A model generated the notes under the pieces. The model was given only the letters and a program-made list of their open reading frames with translations, was not told the origin of the DNA and did not search any database. DNA of 64,000 nt from Chryseobacterium vaccae (lineage in GTDB: Bacteria > Bacteroidota > Bacteroidia > Flavobacteriales > Weeksellaceae), in contig NZ_VSWH01000001.1 of NCBI RefSeq assembly GCF_009602705.1, positions 310,001 to 374,000 of the forward strand, written 5' to 3'. A program made the position numbers and the translations under genes. This document shows positions 38,460 to 46,966 of this stretch, piece by piece. Every line of letters begins with the position of its first letter. The first letter of the stretch is position 1.

Positions 38460-39373
38460 TACCGATCATCTGGATAAATGTTTTTTGTTATCGTTAGCAA
38501 ACGCAAAGCCGCAAAAGTATTTTTCATGCAGTATATATAAGTAAGGTGCAATTAAAAATCTGTGTAATCTGAGTTATCTGTGGGGAATATTTAACCACAA
38601 CAGACACAAAAGATTAATACAAAAGCTATTTTTAAGTTTAAAAGCTTTGTGTATAAAAGTTCACATAAGCCTAAAAAAATCTGCGATTTTTATTGATGCT
38701 GAAAATGAATCTGTCTAATCCGCGAAATCATCGGGAGAAAAAAATACAAGAATCTGTGAGATCTTAAAAACACCAACAAAAATCTCTTCTAAAAACCGGT
38801 TAATGTAATTTGCCTAATTTATTCAATAGAGGTAGACTTTAGTCCGCCTAAACAATAAAAATCATCCCGGGTTCTGATAAAGTCTAGTAACAAATATGTA
38901 AAACAGGCAAAAAATCTGCTGGATCTACGAGAATAAAAATAAAAATCTGCTGAAAAATCTTTGTTTTTAAATCTACAAAAATATCTGAGCTATTAAAATA
39001 ACTCTACTTTTTCATGTCATAAATTATGACAGGTAAGATCAATTTTCGGAATGTCGGTTTTTAATGAAAATATTTTTTTGAATTTTTTTTAAAAAAAATA
39101 TTTATTTCATTCTTTGAAATAGAAGGAATACGCTAATAATATGATTTTTTACGGTTTAAAATTTTATCATATTCGTAAAAAATTACTTGAATTTTTACAA
39201 ATAAAAAACCCAGCCGAAGCTGGGTAAAAACTAATAACCATGAAAACTCAAATTAAACATGAGAATCATAATAGAATTAACAATTACTGTGCCAAAGTTG
39301 ATAACTCCATTTCTTAATAAAAGTTATTTTTATGTTAAAAAAAAATTAAAATAAAAATCAAAGATATTTTTTG
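38460..39373. other. Long gene-free gap with degenerate repeats
   Basis: More than 900 bases between rsgA and ndk with no credible ORF. It holds many AATCTG(C/T)G-like words (for example near 38553, 38677, 38708, 38750, 38912 and 38950) and a degenerate palindrome (38821-38850) related to 27459 and 55011. GAAGCTGGG/CCCAGCCGAAGC-type sequence near 39210-39230 gives a short hairpin. Confidence 0.6.
38821..38850. repeat. Palindromic dispersed repeat (copy B, degenerate)
   Basis: ATTCAATAGAGGTAGACTTT followed by AGTCCGCCTA: the same head as copies A and C with two mismatches in the stem. The sequence after it diverges from the other two copies. Confidence 0.7.
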
Positions 39374-39404: not shown

Positions 39405-39821
39405 ATGTCTAACATTACATTCACTATGATTAAGCCTGATGCAGTAGCAGACGGACATATCGGTGCTATATTAGGGAAGATTGCAGAAGGAGGTTTCAAA
39501 ATTAAAGCTTTAAAATTAACTCAGCTTACTGTAGCTGACGCTAAAAAATTCTATGAAGTACATGCTGAAAGACCATTTTATGGTGAGCTTGTAGAATTCA
39601 TGAGCTCTGGTCCAATCGTTGCAGCTGTTCTTGAAAAAGATAACGCTGTTGAAGATTTCAGAATATTAATCGGATCTACTAATCCTGCAGAAGCTGCAGA
39701 AGGAACAATCAGAAAAATGTTTGCAAGAAGCATCGGAGAAAATGCAGTTCATGGTTCAGATTCTAACGAAAATGCGTTGATCGAAGCTCAGTTCCATTTT
39801 TCAGGAAGAGAAATTTTCTAA
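39405..39821 (+). CDS. ndk: Nucleoside diphosphate kinase
   Basis: A 138-residue enzyme that balances NTP pools. [16 protein letters not shown] at the start, [14 protein letters not shown] around residue 53, and the active-site His in [11 protein letters not shown] (about 118) are all present. Length is normal. A promoter box is just upstream and a strong terminator just downstream, so it is monocistronic. Confidence 0.96.
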
Positions 39822-40026: not shown

Positions 40027-41871
40027 TTACAGGTTGTTTTCAATAGCTTCCACCTTCTCCCTATGCAGGTCAACGGGTTTATCAAGCAGGATGGCAAGAA
40101 CAGTCATACTTTTGTCAAACCTTTCTTTCGGAATATCAATATAAATGATCCCTGGTGTTTCACTCCAGTACAGCTTATTGTATATTTTATGATCCAGAAT
40201 ACTGCCTTCACCGGCTATCCTGATTCTGGCAATATTATTTTTGATTCCTTTTAAGGCAACAGGACCGGTAGGCGTTCCTTCTACAAACAGATAAATGGTC
40301 TGTCTGTCTTTTGAAAGAGCACTCATCCCTGAGTAATGTCCGCCAGGAAGCCCTTTTCCGGTTTCAAAAAGCGCTTCTGCATGTTTACTGATCCATTTCA
40401 GAGTTTCAGGATTGGTTTTGGGAGTTTTGGGAAGAGTCATTTCGAGTCCGTCATTGGTCAGCCCTGAATGATCCATAATATTGCTGCCATTATGAATAAG
40501 ATTGGCAAGATCATACACCGCAGTTTTGGCATCTTTGTTTTCCAGAATATCCTTAACAGAGAAAGTGTCCTTTTCAAAATGATTAAGAAGAGTAGGCTTT
40601 TCACTAAAAATAAGCTGAACCGTTGTCACGTCCTGATCAAATTTTACCTTAGACAGATCAATCATCATCGTTGTATCGTTAGTAAAGTGGAAATTTACCT
40701 GAGAATTTTTATCCCCTACGACTTTTATAACCGATGGTTTACTGGCCAGGCCATACATTTTTACAAAATCTTTAGCCTCTTCCAGATAAAGAAATATAGA
40801 TTTTTCATCTTCAGAAAATGCAGATTTTCCTTTATAATGCTCAAAAGGAATGCCTTGCCTGGTGCCGTATATAGCGTCTTTATTTTTTGTAGTCCATCTT
40901 CCGAGATTTTTTAAAATTTCGGTTTGTTCTTCAGGAATGGTTCCATCAGATTTCGGCCCGATATCCAGAAGGAGATTACCTCCCATGCTGATCACGTCTG
41001 CTAAGGTTCGGACAATCATATTAGGTGTTTTATAATGACTGTCGAACGGCTGGTATCCCCATGAATCATTCATCGTATAGCAAAGCTCCCAATAAGAGCT
41101 TTGGGGAGCTGCAACGGGAATTCCCTGTTCCGGAGTTTCATAATCACCATGATTGTTGAGCCTTGAATTAATAATAATATCAGAATTATACTTCTTTAAA
41201 AGGGCTAAGGTCTGCGGAGCTTTCCATTCTCCGGAAGAGTGCTCCCAATCGCCGTCAAACCATAATAAATCAGGCTTGTACTGTTGTGACAGTTCATTCA
41301 GCTGAGTTTGGTAATAAGAAACAAACTTATCCCATCTTTTAGGGTCGTTTTTGATATCATAACGCTTTTTTGTACGGGTATTGACGTCATAATATGGATG
41401 GCTCCAGTCTGGAAGAGAAAAATAGATCCCGGTTTTGAGTCCTGATTTTTTTAACGCGGCAACAAAAGGAGTTAAGACGTCTTTTTTGGCTGCAGACTGA
41501 TGAGGAATCGTGATAGCCTTCTCAGCTTTAGAATTCCATAAAGAAATACCATCATGATGTTTGGAGGTAATAACGGCATATTTTGCTCCTGATTCCTGGA
41601 TCATGCGAACCCATTCCTCCGGCTTGTAACCCGAGGCTGAAAAGCCGTTAAGCTGTTTCATATAATTTTCATGATTGATATAATTATTAAAAAAAGACCA
41701 GGACTCGGAGATACCATCAACTGAATAAATACCCCAATGGATAAAAATACCAAGTTTGGCATTTCTGAACCATTCCATTTTTTTTAGACCATCTGATTCA
41801 GACTGAGCATTGAAATGGCATGCTGATAGCATCAATCCTAAAAAAACAACTCCTGTTATCCTCTTTTTCAT
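40027..41871 (-). CDS. GH29 alpha-L-fucosidase lipoprotein
   Basis: A 614-residue protein with a lipobox signal (LMLSACHFNAQ). The GH29 catalytic domain follows: FRNAKLGIFIHWGIYSVDG near residue 40, AKYAVITSKHHDGISLW, LPDWSHPYYD, and the nucleophile region DLLWFDGDW. VISMGGNLLLDIGPKSDGTIPEEQ marks the end of the barrel near residue 330. The last about 280 residues are beta-rich accessory domains. It removes fucose from host or plant glycans, probably at the outer membrane or periplasm. It stands alone, without SusCD genes, so it is not part of a visible polysaccharide-utilisation locus. Confidence 0.92.
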   Translation of the reverse strand: MKKRITGVVFLGLMLSACHFNAQSESDGLKKMEWFRNAKLGIFIHWGIYSVDGISESWSFFNNYINHENYMKQLNGFSASGYKPEEWVRMIQESGAKYAVITSKHHDGISLWNSKAEKAITIPHQSAAKKDVLTPFVAALKKSGLKTGIYFSLPDWSHPYYDVNTRTKKRYDIKNDPKRWDKFVSYYQTQLNELSQQYKPDLLWFDGDWEHSSGEWKAPQTLALLKKYNSDIIINSRLNNHGDYETPEQGIPVAAPQSSYWELCYTMNDSWGYQPFDSHYKTPNMIVRTLADVISMGGNLLLDIGPKSDGTIPEEQTEILKNLGRWTTKNKDAIYGTRQGIPFEHYKGKSAFSEDEKSIFLYLEEAKDFVKMYGLASKPSVIKVVGDKNSQVNFHFTNDTTMMIDLSKVKFDQDVTTVQLIFSEKPTLLNHFEKDTFSVKDILENKDAKTAVYDLANLIHNGSNIMDHSGLTNDGLEMTLPKTPKTNPETLKWISKHAEALFETGKGLPGGHYSGMSALSKDRQTIYLFVEGTPTGPVALKGIKNNIARIRIAGEGSILDHKIYNKLYWSETPGIIYIDIPKERFDKSMTVLAILLDKPVDLHREKVEAIENNL

Positions 41872-42059
41872 TTCTCTTTTTTATGCTAAAATAAATAAAG
41901 AAAAGCTAATTTTTTCGGATAAAGAAAGTAAATGTTATATTCATTAATAGAAGTATTGAATTTAAATATGAAAAGCTGAAATACTGAATAATAAAATATC
42001 GTATTTTTAACGAGATGATAAATGGAATACTTCTTGTAAGTTTCTTTAAAAAAAAGAAT

Positions 42060-42272
42060 ATGAAAATTCCAATGATAGTAATGGCGGGTTTATTAGCTGT
42101 GGGGGTATCTGCACAGACAACAAAACCAGTGAAAAAAATAAACAAGCCAGTTAAGAAAATTAAAAAAGCAGAAGCACCAAAACCGGTAAAAGCTGCCGAA
42201 CCTAAAGTAATTGTAAAGAAAGATACTCTTCTTAAAAGAGGAGGATACTGCCCGGCCTGCGGAATGGGATAA
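42060..42272 (+). CDS. Putative MNIO-modified RiPP precursor with signal peptide, C-terminal CPACGMG
   Basis: 70 residues from MKIPMIVMAG. A Sec-type signal (ends VGVSAQ, residue about 19) is followed by a Lys/Pro/Ala-rich spacer. The end is RGGYCPACGMG, with the only two Cys of the peptide in the last seven residues. Its stop lies three bases before the DUF692 gene, so the two are coupled. DUF692 (MNIO) enzymes modify Cys of precursor peptides, often encoded next to them, as in methanobactin, bufferin and Chryseobacterium ChrH pathways. Role as substrate is inferred. An ATG 45 bases upstream only adds a poor leader. Confidence 0.72.
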   Translation: MKIPMIVMAGLLAVGVSAQTTKPVKKINKPVKKIKKAEAPKPVKAAEPKVIVKKDTLLKRGGYCPACGMG

Positions 42273-42275
42273 TTT

Positions 42276-43370
42276 ATGAAAAAACCTCTCTTGGGACTGT
42301 CGATGATGCCGGAAGCAGATTTTGTTTCCGCAATACTTCCACTGTTGCAGGATCAGTCGGTGGCTGTGCTGGAATGGTCCTTTGATACGGTTGAACAAAT
42401 GCATGAGCCGGAATGGCTCAGCGGTCTTTTGGATTTTTATGCCGAAAATAACCGTCTGTTGGGACATGGGGTATATTATTCGCTTTTTGATGCCCGATGG
42501 ACAGAACGGCAGGAGGTCTGGCTTGAAAAACTAAAGCAGGAAATCCAAAGAAGAAAATACAATCATATTACGGAACATTTCGGTTTTATGAATACCGAAA
42601 ACTATCATCAAGGCGTTCCCCTGCCGGTTCCGTTACATCCCAAAATACTACAGATTGGAAAAGACAGGCTGGCACGTTTACAGGCTGTCGTAGAAATTCC
42701 TGTGGGTGTGGAAAATCTTGCTTTTTCGTTTTCAGCAGATGATGTCAGGGAGCAAGGAATATTCCTTGAAAAACTGATTGAAGAAGTAGATGGCTTCCTG
42801 ATTTTGGATCTTCATAACATTTACTGTCAGTCCTGTAATTTTGAGATTGATATTCTGGATATCGTTACCATGTATCCGCTTGAAAAAGTAAAGGAAATTC
42901 ATCTTTCCGGAGGAAGCTGGCAGGAAAGTGTATACGGAAAAAAGCCAATCAGAAGGGATACTCATGATGATGCAATTCCTGAAGAGGTATTGGCTGTATT
43001 ACCTGAAGTGCTTTCCAGGTGTCCAAATCTTGAATATGTCATTATTGAAAGGCTGGGACATACTATAAGTACAAATATAGAAAAAGAGTCTTTTTTCAAT
43101 GACTTTGTTAAAACTAAAAAAATAATTGAAGGTTGCTTGTTTCCAGCCAGAAAGAAGACTGTGTGGAATAGAAAAGAATATATTTCTCCGGAACCATTGG
43201 AGGATCAGTTACTGTATCATGAACAGACAAAACTGACAAGATTACTCCACGAAAACGGGGATATTGCGTTTTTTAAAAATGAAGACTTTAGTTATTTCAA
43301 CGTGCAGAAATGGGATCCCGAAATGATAGAAACTGCCCGAAGTATCATCAAAAAGTGGAACCCATACTAA
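42276..43370 (+). CDS. DUF692-family multinuclear iron oxidative enzyme (MNIO), with C-terminal extension
   Basis: 364 residues. The TIM-barrel part (about 1-270) carries plausible metal ligands of the family: E100/H101 in ITEHFGF, E146 in VGVENLAFSF, D178/H180/N181 in LDLHNIY, H209 in EIHLSGGSW, H230/D231 in DTHDDA, and E258 in VIIERLGH. The last about 90 residues are extra compared with usual members of about 280 residues and could replace a separate partner protein (inference). It is encoded directly after the CPACGMG peptide and before a DUF1772-like membrane protein. The chemistry performed here is unknown. Confidence 0.85.
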   Translation: MKKPLLGLSMMPEADFVSAILPLLQDQSVAVLEWSFDTVEQMHEPEWLSGLLDFYAENNRLLGHGVYYSLFDARWTERQEVWLEKLKQEIQRRKYNHITEHFGFMNTENYHQGVPLPVPLHPKILQIGKDRLARLQAVVEIPVGVENLAFSFSADDVREQGIFLEKLIEEVDGFLILDLHNIYCQSCNFEIDILDIVTMYPLEKVKEIHLSGGSWQESVYGKKPIRRDTHDDAIPEEVLAVLPEVLSRCPNLEYVIIERLGHTISTNIEKESFFNDFVKTKKIIEGCLFPARKKTVWNRKEYISPEPLEDQLLYHEQTKLTRLLHENGDIAFFKNEDFSYFNVQKWDPEMIETARSIIKKWNPY

Positions 43371-43398
43371 TTCTTTGTACACCGTTAATCAAAAATAA

Positions 43399-43890
43399 AT
43401 GAAAATGACAACCGTATTTTTAATAACTGCAACTGTACTTACGGCTTTAATTGCAGGGCTTTTCTATGCGTATTCCTGTTCTGTAGTTCTGGGATTGGGA
43501 AAACTCTCGGATTCAGAATATCTGAGAGCCATGCAGAGTATTAACCGGGAAATTCTTAATCCTGTATTTTTTGTGAGTTTTATCGGAACAGCAATACTGC
43601 TTCCAGTGACTGCTTTTCTTTTTCGCGGACAGCAGCCTGCTTTTATCTTTCTTCTGCTGGCGTCTGTGGCCTACCTGATTGGTGTATTCGGAGTAACTGT
43701 TGCCGGAAACGTTCCCCTGAATGATCTACTGGGTAAGTTTGATATTGCCGGATCATCTGCCGAAGCAGTGAAACTGATGCGCAAAACTTTTGAAAACAGA
43801 TGGAACTTTTTGAACAATATCAGAACAGTTTTCTCTGTCATAAGTATCGTTCTGGCAGTCTGTGCCTGTATCTGGAATAAAGAGATTTAA
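43399..43890 (+). CDS. DUF1772-like four-helix membrane protein
   Basis: A 163-residue integral membrane protein with four spans (about 5-25, 54-74, 81-102, 140-160). LIAGLFYAYSCSVVLGLGKL, SINREILNPVFFVSFIG and GVTVAGNVPLNDLLGKFD are typical of the DUF1772/anthrone oxygenase-like group. It follows the MNIO gene by 28 bases and is probably in the same transcript, where DoxX-type membrane proteins sit in bufferin operons. A link to metal or redox handling is inference. Confidence 0.78.
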   Translation: MKMTTVFLITATVLTALIAGLFYAYSCSVVLGLGKLSDSEYLRAMQSINREILNPVFFVSFIGTAILLPVTAFLFRGQQPAFIFLLLASVAYLIGVFGVTVAGNVPLNDLLGKFDIAGSSAEAVKLMRKTFENRWNFLNNIRTVFSVISIVLAVCACIWNKEI

Positions 43891-44207: not shown

Positions 44208-44837
44208 ATGAAACATTTAGAAAATTTTTTCGGTACGAGATGGTTGTCTCTAAAAAAGTTTTACGCCCTATTAGCTCTTACAGCAGCATTCTCCATAACA
44301 AGCTGCAGCAAAGATGACGATGAGCCTATTCCCCAGCCAATAACCTATGCAGTAGAAAACCCTTTGGATAAATATCATGAAATGACAGGTTTTACAACAA
44401 CAACGAATTTTATAAACTCTGGCGATTATGAATTTGGGCTTGCCTTCTCGGCCAATGTAAAAGGGAAAATCAGCGCAATAACTATTAAACTTCCTGATGT
44501 TAATCCGAATCTAAGAGTAACATTCTGGGATTATACCACTAAAACAGTACTAAGAACAGAAACAATCAATGTGACAGCTTCTAATACTTTGATTACGAAA
44601 AGTATTTCAGAATTGGCGTTGGAAAAAGATAAAAAATACGTGATCACAATGAATTCCAATGACTGGTATAAGAGATCAAAGCCGGATAATAGCAATGCTG
44701 CGTATCCCATCACTGCCGGAAATATCAAATTTTGGGAGTATAAATGGACGAGTGGTACGGCACAGGCATTCCCAACGACTACTTCACTGGATTATAACGG
44801 AGGTGATTTAAGCTTTAATTTTCAACAGGTAGACTAA
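44208..44837 (+). CDS. Lipoprotein with DUF4082-like beta domain
   Basis: A 209-residue protein. The lipobox SITSCSKDDDE at about residue 33 comes after a longer than usual N-terminal part (MKHLENFFGTRWLSLKKFYA). The body is beta-rich: GLAFSANVKGKISAITIKLP and NLRVTFWDYTTKTVLRTETI resemble DUF4082-type domains. An acidic stretch after the lipid Cys is common in surface-exposed lipoproteins of the phylum. Function unknown. It is a monocistronic gene closed by a strong terminator. Confidence 0.7.
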   Translation: MKHLENFFGTRWLSLKKFYALLALTAAFSITSCSKDDDEPIPQPITYAVENPLDKYHEMTGFTTTTNFINSGDYEFGLAFSANVKGKISAITIKLPDVNPNLRVTFWDYTTKTVLRTETINVTASNTLITKSISELALEKDKKYVITMNSNDWYKRSKPDNSNAAYPITAGNIKFWEYKWTSGTAQAFPTTTSLDYNGGDLSFNFQQVD

Positions 44838-44906: not shown

Positions 44907-45557
44907 TTAGATCTTTAAAAGTTCAATGGTTCTTTCCGGGCTTTCTGTAGAAAATACAGCATTTCCGGCTACCAGAACATCGGCTCCCGCTTCGAAAAGC
45001 TTGGAAGCATTATCCAGATTCACGCCGCCATCAATCTCAATAAGAGCTGTGGAGTTATTGCTTAAAATAAGATCTTTTGTTTCCGCAATTTTCTTGTATG
45101 TATTTTCAATGAATTTCTGGCCTCCAAATCCTGGGTTTACACTCATTAAAAGAACAAGATCCACATCTGCAATAATGTCTTCAAGCATCAGCACTGGAGT
45201 GGAAGGATTCAGAACAACTCCTGCTTTTGCCCCTCTGCTCTGAATATGATGAATCGTTCTGTGAAGATGGGTACATGCTTCATAATGTACAGAAACAAGA
45301 TCAGCACCATGGTCAATAAATTCATCCACATACTTTTCCGGTTCTACAATCATCAGATGAACATCAACAAATTTTTTAGCGTGCTGCTGAATGGTCTTCA
45401 TAACAGGAAAACCGAATGAAATATTAGGAACAAATCTGCCGTCCATAACGTCAACGTGGAACCAGTCGGCCTGAGATCTGTTCAGCATTTCAATGTCTCT
45501 TTGCAGATTCCCGAAGTCTGCGGATAAAAGGGAAGGAGCAATAAGCTTCGTTTTCAT
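44907..45557 (-). CDS. rpe: Ribulose-phosphate 3-epimerase
   Basis: A 216-residue TIM-barrel enzyme of the pentose phosphate pathway. LIAPSLLSADFGNLQRDI opens it, with HVDVMDGRFVPNISFG, VDVHLMIVEPEKYV, LVLLMSVNPGFGGQKF and EIDGGVNLDN as family motifs carrying the metal-binding His and Asp residues. Normal length. It is on - behind a decayed small membrane gene and the M42 peptidase. Confidence 0.95.
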   Translation of the reverse strand: MKTKLIAPSLLSADFGNLQRDIEMLNRSQADWFHVDVMDGRFVPNISFGFPVMKTIQQHAKKFVDVHLMIVEPEKYVDEFIDHGADLVSVHYEACTHLHRTIHHIQSRGAKAGVVLNPSTPVLMLEDIIADVDLVLLMSVNPGFGGQKFIENTYKKIAETKDLILSNNSTALIEIDGGVNLDNASKLFEAGADVLVAGNAVFSTESPERTIELLKI

Positions 45558-45892: not shown

Positions 45893-46966
45893 TTAATGAT
45901 ACTTCAGCTTCATCTCCGGATTGATCTTAAGAAGCGTTTCGTAGATCAGTTTGATCACATTGCCCACATCTTCTTTAGATACCATTTCTACCGTTGTATG
46001 CATATAGCGCAAAGGTAAGGAAATTAATGCACTTGGTACTCCGCCGTTGGAATGGGCGAATGCATCAGTATCAGTTCCGGTACTTCTGCTCGCTGCTGCT
46101 CTCTGATAAGGAATCTTTTTGCTTTTTGCGGTATCAATAATCAACTCTCTGATCGTGTGATGAATGCTCGGTGCAAAGAAAACTACAGGTCCGTCACCAC
46201 ATTTTTGATCGCCTTCTTTCTTCTTCTCAATCATAGGTGTTGTGGTATCGTGGGTAACATCGGTTACGATAGCAATATTAGGTTTAATGGTATCAGCAAT
46301 CATATCAGCACCATACAGGCCAACTTCTTCCTGTACGGAATTGGTAATATACAGTCCGAAAGGAATCGTTTTTTTGTTTTCCTTTAAAAGTCGTGCCACT
46401 TCAGCAATCATAAAGCCTCCGATTCTGTTATCGAGCGCTCTGCACACAAAATAACGGTCGTTCATTTCAAAGAATTCATCCGGATAAGTGATCATGCAAC
46501 CTACATAGATTCCCATGTCTTCGACTTCTTTCTTCGTAACAGCACCGCAGTCGATGAAAATATTTTCAATTTTTGGAGCTGGTTCGTTCTGGTTGGTTCT
46601 GGTGTGGATTGCAGGCCATCCGAATACCCCTTTCACGATTCCTTTTTCACCATGAATGTGAACTACTTTCGAAGGTGCGATCGTCTGGTCAGATCCTCCG
46701 TTTCGGATCACATAAATAAGCCCGTCATCCGTAATATAATTTACATACCATGAGATTTCATCCGCATGAGCTTCAATAACGACTTTAAACTCAGCCTCAG
46801 GATTAATGATCCCATAGCAGGTCCCGTAATGATCTACTTCAATTTTGTCTACATAAGGTTTAATGTAATCCATCCAGACTTCCTGGCCTTTATGTTCGTA
46901 TCCAGTTGGAGATGAGGTGTTTAAGTATTTTTCTAAAAATTTCAAAGATTTCTTTTCAAATTTCAT
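45893..46966 (-). CDS. M42-family metallopeptidase (glutamyl aminopeptidase type)
   Basis: A 357-residue cytosolic aminopeptidase. N-terminal SPTGYEHKGQEVW, metal ligands in EAHADEISWYV (about residue 66) and CRALDNRIGGF, the catalytic Glu region SVQEEVGLYGA, DVTHD, and a C-terminal YMHTTVEM with the last His ligand are present. M42 enzymes form tetrahedral complexes that trim peptides. Not secreted. It is first in a short minus-strand run with the decayed membrane gene and rpe. Confidence 0.93.
   Translation of the reverse strand: MKFEKKSLKFLEKYLNTSSPTGYEHKGQEVWMDYIKPYVDKIEVDHYGTCYGIINPEAEFKVVIEAHADEISWYVNYITDDGLIYVIRNGGSDQTIAPSKVVHIHGEKGIVKGVFGWPAIHTRTNQNEPAPKIENIFIDCGAVTKKEVEDMGIYVGCMITYPDEFFEMNDRYFVCRALDNRIGGFMIAEVARLLKENKKTIPFGLYITNSVQEEVGLYGADMIADTIKPNIAIVTDVTHDTTTPMIEKKKEGDQKCGDGPVVFFAPSIHHTIRELIIDTAKSKKIPYQRAAASRSTGTDTDAFAHSNGGVPSALISLPLRYMHTTVEMVSKEDVGNVIKLIYETLLKINPEMKLKYH

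Follow-up and report, generated by a model that had tools for sequence, protein, structure and literature searches.

The three-gene cassette in the 64-kb stretch of the Chryseobacterium vaccae genome analyzed here (the window) is, judged from its sequence, an instance of the already published chryseobasin (chr) cluster, and we consider it highly probable that the locus is a chr RiPP cluster with chrA and chrH as its core, chrI as an optional partner, a ribulose-phosphate epimerase gene (rpe) and an M42 peptidase gene as neighbors, and, as the weakest step of this explanation, a probable sigma-54-type promoter ahead of chrA (Table 1). Against the curated NCBIfam cut-offs, which we used for all three calls, ChrA scored 116.8 bits (cut-off 50), ChrH 676 bits over 363 of 363 model positions (cut-off 600) and ChrI 307.6 bits (cut-off 275). 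The main text of the 2023 description of the cluster in Chryseobacterium (PMC10214503) gives the same parts, namely the CPACGMG motif, a DUF692 enzyme and the DUF1772 protein ChrI, with a precursor logo built from 115 clusters, and also counts ChrE (ribulose-phosphate epimerase) and ChrP (M42 peptidase) in the cluster. The first-pass annotation had correctly recognized a RiPP cassette of the MNIO type in which the precursor carries a Sec-type signal and a CPxCGMG core, and the positions that it gave for the 70-residue peptide, the DUF692 enzyme and the membrane protein were confirmed: ChrA has just two Cys, both within its last seven residues (CPACGMG), and three bases separate the chrA stop from the chrH start. 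Its proposal that the cassette is distinct from the chr pathway fails, as all three proteins pass the ChrA, ChrH and ChrI cut-offs.

Table 1. Features of the chr locus and its flanks, in positions of the window.
Feature	Position	Strand	Model or basis
ndk, outer flank of the slot that holds the fucosidase gene and chrAHI	39405..39821	+	PF00334
GH29 alpha-L-fucosidase, divergent from chrA	40027..41871	-	PF01120, 301.5 bits
Promoter-like element TGGAAYRNTNNTTGYAA, GG-N10-G[T/C], predicted sigma-54 (-24/-12) promoter of chrA	42023..42039	+	conservation; function inferred
chrA, chryseobasin precursor, 70 aa, Sec-type signal, linker, core CPACGMG	42060..42272 (stop counted)	+	NF050124
chrH, MNIO (DUF692) maturase with C-terminal extension, 364 aa	42276..43370	+	NF050165; PF05114
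chrI, DUF1772/anthrone-oxygenase-like membrane protein, 163 aa, optional partner	43399..43890	+	NF050162
rpe, ribulose-phosphate 3-epimerase, "ChrE" in the published cluster	44907..45557	-	TIGR01163, 279.5 bits
M42 aminopeptidase, "ChrP" in the published cluster	45893..46966	-	PF05343

Two traits offered as marks of novelty are present without setting the locus apart. The Pfam domain MbnB_TglH_ChrH spans residues 50-259 of 364, so that ChrH does carry about 105 further C-terminal residues, but a helical bundle at the C-terminus is shared across the ChrH subfamily, for which an AlphaFold 3 model has already been published (main text of PMC12636315). Likewise, no DoxX match was found in the cassette and the third protein matches Anthrone_oxy (PF08592) in a Pfam search, but a DUF1772 partner in that place is the published ChrI (PMC10214503). 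A chrA start at 42015, giving 85 aa, is unlikely, since it would place the conserved element (42023-42039) within the gene. Compared by description, the window shares with the published cluster ChrA with CPACGMG, the MNIO ChrH, the DUF1772 protein ChrI and nearby rpe and M42 genes, and differs by an extra 209-aa open reading frame between chrI and rpe (44208-44837), which matches DUF4082 weakly and below cut-off. In the window 1067 bp separate chrI from rpe, where the median gap is 271 bp; the gap is at least 900 bp in 15 of 61 genomes. Elsewhere in the window, the stretch 38460-39334, which is about 0.9 kb long and precedes ndk, has no complete open reading frame of at least 50 aa listed, and the 64 kb gave no hit in scans for Rfam families (gathering threshold) or tRNA genes.

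Within the family, ChrH exceeded its cut-off in 50 of 246 genomes, all of the window's genus, and within the genus in 68 of 128, with broken pieces in G270 (75% complete, broken genes), which we counted among 69 chrH genomes. ChrA adjoins ChrH in these same 69 of 128 genomes (median gap between HMM matches, 12 bases); the ChrA peptide stood beside its DUF692 partner in 69 of 69 cases, and because the pair recurs in this way the cassette is not a product of chance. These counts suggest that chrA and chrH form the real core of the cluster. ChrI had no match in 8 of the 69 (one of them, G280, at a contig end) and adjoins rpe in 10 genomes that lack chrH; ChrH is active without ChrI in coexpression (PMC12636315). 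ChrI is therefore optional, yet its retention in 61 of 69 chrH genomes suggests some continuing importance. Among named genomes, a scan limited to close relatives yielded 30 loci, every one labeled Chryseobacterium, the best at 88% identity in C. indologenes CI_885. Of the 201 plasmid records matched by ChrH, a single one, from Hymenobacter, covers at least 80% of the protein. This plasmid (NZ_CP095062.1, from Hymenobacter volaticus) carries a ChrH-like MNIO gene and a heparinase II/III gene, directly preceded by a lipoprotein-like open reading frame of 55 aa that ends in CPACGMG (L240:3800-3967); the gene table of the plasmid, known to have gaps, does not list this frame. The dyb cluster of Dyadobacter crusticola and relatives, as described in the main text of PMC12636315, shares the CPACGMG core and an MNIO with a C-terminal helical extension, but has a lipoprotein signal with a third Cys, an unmethylated -4 Da product in which no chromophore was seen, and no partner gene; the lipobox Cys of such DAG-RiPPs is absent from the window's ChrA, whose only Cys are the two of the core.

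Sequence variation was followed in 66 of the 69 chrH genomes (G270, G280 and G293 were left out). The core reads CPACGMG in 61 fetched ChrA, CVACGMG in two, and CPACGKG, CPACGLG and CPAYGMG in one each, and a [KR][KRQ]D[TS] stretch lies ahead of it in 64 of 66. One of the 61 genes (G272) carries an in-frame stop and was kept in the counts but excluded from the conservation alignment. The CPAYGMG core, with the second Cys replaced by Tyr, comes from G192, where chrH has no stops and the change may be a sequencing error. Across the 66 ChrH, mean identity is 77% in the barrel part and 56% in the C-terminal part.

Upstream of chrA, the aligned regions hold one strongly conserved block: all 66 fetched regions carry GG-N10-G[T/C] at a distance of 20-35 nt from the ATG. 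Common descent explains some of this 66/66, but conservation in the block exceeds that of the flanking sequence; a pattern based on it, drawn from these same sequences, matches once in the window against 0.01 expected. Controls counted from in-frame ATGs, with GG-N8-TTG[C/T] sought within 5-60 nt, set chrA (66/66) against its neighbors: fucosidase 0/68, ChrI 1/68, ndk 4/122, rpe 2/122 and M42 0/70 (a further 52 M42 genes having no usable ATG). A chrA copy relocated in G292 retains the GG and TTGT of the element. For scoring we used TGGCACGNNNNTTGCW, which we take to be the full sigma-54 consensus. A close form of it is printed in PMC12316311. The window element matches 8 of 12 positions of this consensus; of the 66 chrA sites, 44 score at least 9, 19 score 8 and three score 7, and one of the last, G225, has its highest-scoring stretch at another place in the upstream region. 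At the median locus, 3 of 13,696 positions score as high as the chrA site, and the printed score-8 loci have 30-50 such positions. In the window, the loose form TGG-N8-TTGY occurs about as often as chance predicts (18 versus 17.0 expected). With a score of 8/12 and a loose pattern at chance level, the case for sigma-54 rests on conservation.

A strict form of the element has a match in 94 of 128 genomes; in three example genomes the matches outside chrA lie within open reading frames or before other genes, and as the window's own genome has just two, that of chrA and one overlapping an open reading frame, no regulon emerged. In a subset of genomes a second recurrent match stands about 20 kb upstream of chrA (L180, L195, near position 1501), ahead of a gene that by eye resembles a TPR regulator.

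The strongest competitor to sigma-54, and one that we rate as a serious possibility at somewhat below even chances, is that the conserved element is the site of another regulator, an ECF promoter or a variant housekeeping promoter. The -12 dinucleotide fits such a reading, being GT in 86% of chrA sites and the usual GC in 13%, as do the 8/12 score of the window element and the many equally scoring positions at score-8 loci. ECF -35 boxes can resemble the GGAAC of the element. Against it, conservation peaks in GG-N10-G[T/C] and its A/T flanks. We rejected an ECF promoter for want of a CGT-like box 16-17 nt downstream, where columns 17-24 hold at most 9% G, and a housekeeping promoter because the Bacteroidota form TTG-N17-23-TAnnTTTG occurs in 0 of 66 chrA upstream regions (TAnnTTTG by itself in 4 of 66). 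The SM5-type TAnnTTGY of PMC9723704 was also rejected, since the column that requires A is T in 100% of sites. That the chrA element is probably a sigma-54 promoter is a fair prediction and the weakest step of our explanation. Flavobacterium psychrophilum has one sigma-54, with a regulon that covers GroESL, envelope-stress functions and exported proteins (PMC9723704). No link of sigma-54 to the chr cluster was found in the main text of PMC10214503, PMC12636315 or PMC12452194.

The slot between ndk and rpe occurs in seven states among the 128 genomes: none of the four genes (41 genomes), fucosidase only (8), fucosidase and ChrI (10), all four (54), chrAHI (7), chrAH (7) and fucosidase with chrAH (1). 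In 38 of the 41 empty slots ndk and rpe lie on one contig, 159-1267 bp apart (median 416). Two genomes depart from the usual site: in G245 fucosidase, chrAH and ndk stand together more than 0.5 Mb from rpe, and in G292 chrAH occupies a foreign site with neither fucosidase nor ChrI, leaving an empty ndk-rpe slot of 334 bp. On a tree of 122 genomes built from ndk, rpe and M42 (G252, G265, G270, G280, G293 and G298 were left out because the assembly was fragmented, the genes fell on different contigs or at contig ends, or a long insert intervened), chrA and chrH require 6 changes each, ChrI 8 and the fucosidase 13.

It would be tempting to make the fucosidase, whose N-terminus looks lipoprotein-like by eye, a functional part of the system, in glycan use: it runs divergently from chrA and no more than 1 kb away in 54 of the 55 genomes with both genes, it stays with chrAH in G245, and SusCD genes lie near related clusters (main text of PMC12636315). 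We consider this improbable. A fucosidase match at E 1e-80 is missing from 14 of 69 chrH genomes, the gene is present in 18 of 59 genomes without chrH, and it changes on the tree more than twice as often as chrH; in independent pairs on the tree, chrH showed coupling to neither the fucosidase nor ChrI, the differing pairs being too few for a test of significance. We accordingly rejected a functional fucosidase link as not shown, and the gene was not found as part of the chr cluster in the main text of PMC10214503, PMC12636315 or PMC12452194. In G293 about 42 kb separate the fucosidase from chrA (L172, L173); by eye, L172 seems to encode a ClpV-like ATPase and further proteins resembling those of a contractile injection or type VI system.

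The published border of the cluster takes in rpe and the M42 gene. With chrH at most 5 kb from rpe in 66 of 68 genomes that allowed both to be placed, their proximity fits the published filing of all in one cluster, and since PMC10214503 places ChrE and ChrP there, the two might really be dedicated enzymes that finish the peptide. The counts make this very unlikely. PF00834 matches in 128 of 128 genomes and full-length in 125, where the full-length epimerase is single save for weak second hits in G222 and G274; the exceptions are G298 (split over contigs), G280 (a short piece) and G252 (a weak match like the second hits). M42 is present in 126 of 128 genomes, and in all 126 where both were placed rpe and M42 lie near each other on one strand, 58 of them without chrH, at gaps of at most 670 bp in 125 and of 3343 bp in G020, which has another cluster between them. 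The window's genome has a single match for each. Furthermore, rpe lies on the strand opposite chrH in 67 of 68 genomes, chrAH is far from rpe and M42 in G245 and G292, and by eye neither open reading frame starts with a signal peptide, whereas ChrA is exported. In place of a dedicated ChrE and ChrP, we thus found two genes that occur and sit together independently of chrH; they look like housekeeping neighbors, and this revision of the border is well supported by the counts. We judge the inclusion of ChrE and ChrP to be an over-wide published border and no ground for excluding the locus from chr. The cluster within the G020 gap (L046:2001-5052), in a genome without chr genes, is another MNIO cluster in the same neighborhood, of oxazolin/bufferin-like make-up with an EGKCG precursor, an HvfB-type MNIO above cut-off, a DUF2063 partner, DoxX and an ECF sigma gene.

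A distinct metal-related RiPP of the bufferin or methanobactin kind, as the first-pass annotation had proposed, would fit the MNIO enzyme, the Sec-type precursor and the weak scores of the enzyme to BufB (91.4 bits, cut-off 310) and HvfB (72.7 bits, cut-off 360), but a metal link found no support here and this is the least credible reading. These scores are far below cut-off, the related DybA product showed no chromophore (PMC12636315), the published ChrHI product is neither oxazolone nor thiooxazole (PMC10214503), and we rejected the reading on the ground that the three proteins score as ChrA, ChrH and ChrI above cut-off. Bufferins (BufABC) and oxazolins (HvfABC) share with the window an MNIO enzyme and a signal-peptide precursor but differ in their DUF2063 partner and DoxX, neither of which is matched by the cassette genes, and in core motifs and chemistry. 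Methanobactin (MbnABC) resembles it in an MNIO acting on Cys, and differs in that the MbnB model scores 18.1 bits (cut-off 325) and the cassette has no MbnC match.

Returning to the chr reading, we propose that ChrA is synthesized with a Sec signal, and that cytoplasmic ChrH, an iron enzyme, would act on the C-terminal CPACGMG using SAM and O2, the use of O2 being the proposal of the authors of PMC10214503. ChrH would join the sulfur of the first Cys to the beta-carbon of the second, shift a carbonyl into an imidazolidinedione ring and S-methylate the migrated thiol, for a net +10 Da. This chemistry was shown for a related ChrA/ChrH pair, not the window's, and Cys-to-Ser mutants of that system's ChrA gave no product (main text of PMC10214503); by analogy, the window's ChrA would yield a +10 Da S-methylated macrocycle with an imidazolidinedione. 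Given that ChrA bears a signal peptidase I signal (PMC12636315), the modified peptide may then be exported and cleaved by that peptidase. Transcription of chrA would start from the sigma-54-type promoter, the weakest step, and chrA with chrH would suffice as the functional core, with ChrI optional and rpe and M42 as housekeeping neighbors. We suggest tentatively, at close to an even chance, that chrAH is switched on by sigma-54 with an enhancer-binding activator, as part of an envelope or surface-contact response rather than a metal response, and that no dedicated protease or epimerase is needed.

The two-gene core and the upstream element go beyond what is described for chr in the main text of PMC10214503 and PMC12636315. 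If the border revision holds, the reconstitution with ChrP and ChrE planned in PMC10214503 would target housekeeping enzymes, and what signal peptidase releases may already be mature chryseobasin. The sigma-54 element, if real, would offer a handle on the timing of peptide production, bearing on the function of chryseobasin; and should activation by sigma-54 without a dedicated protease prove true, the conditions under which chryseobasin is expressed and its mature form would become directly findable.
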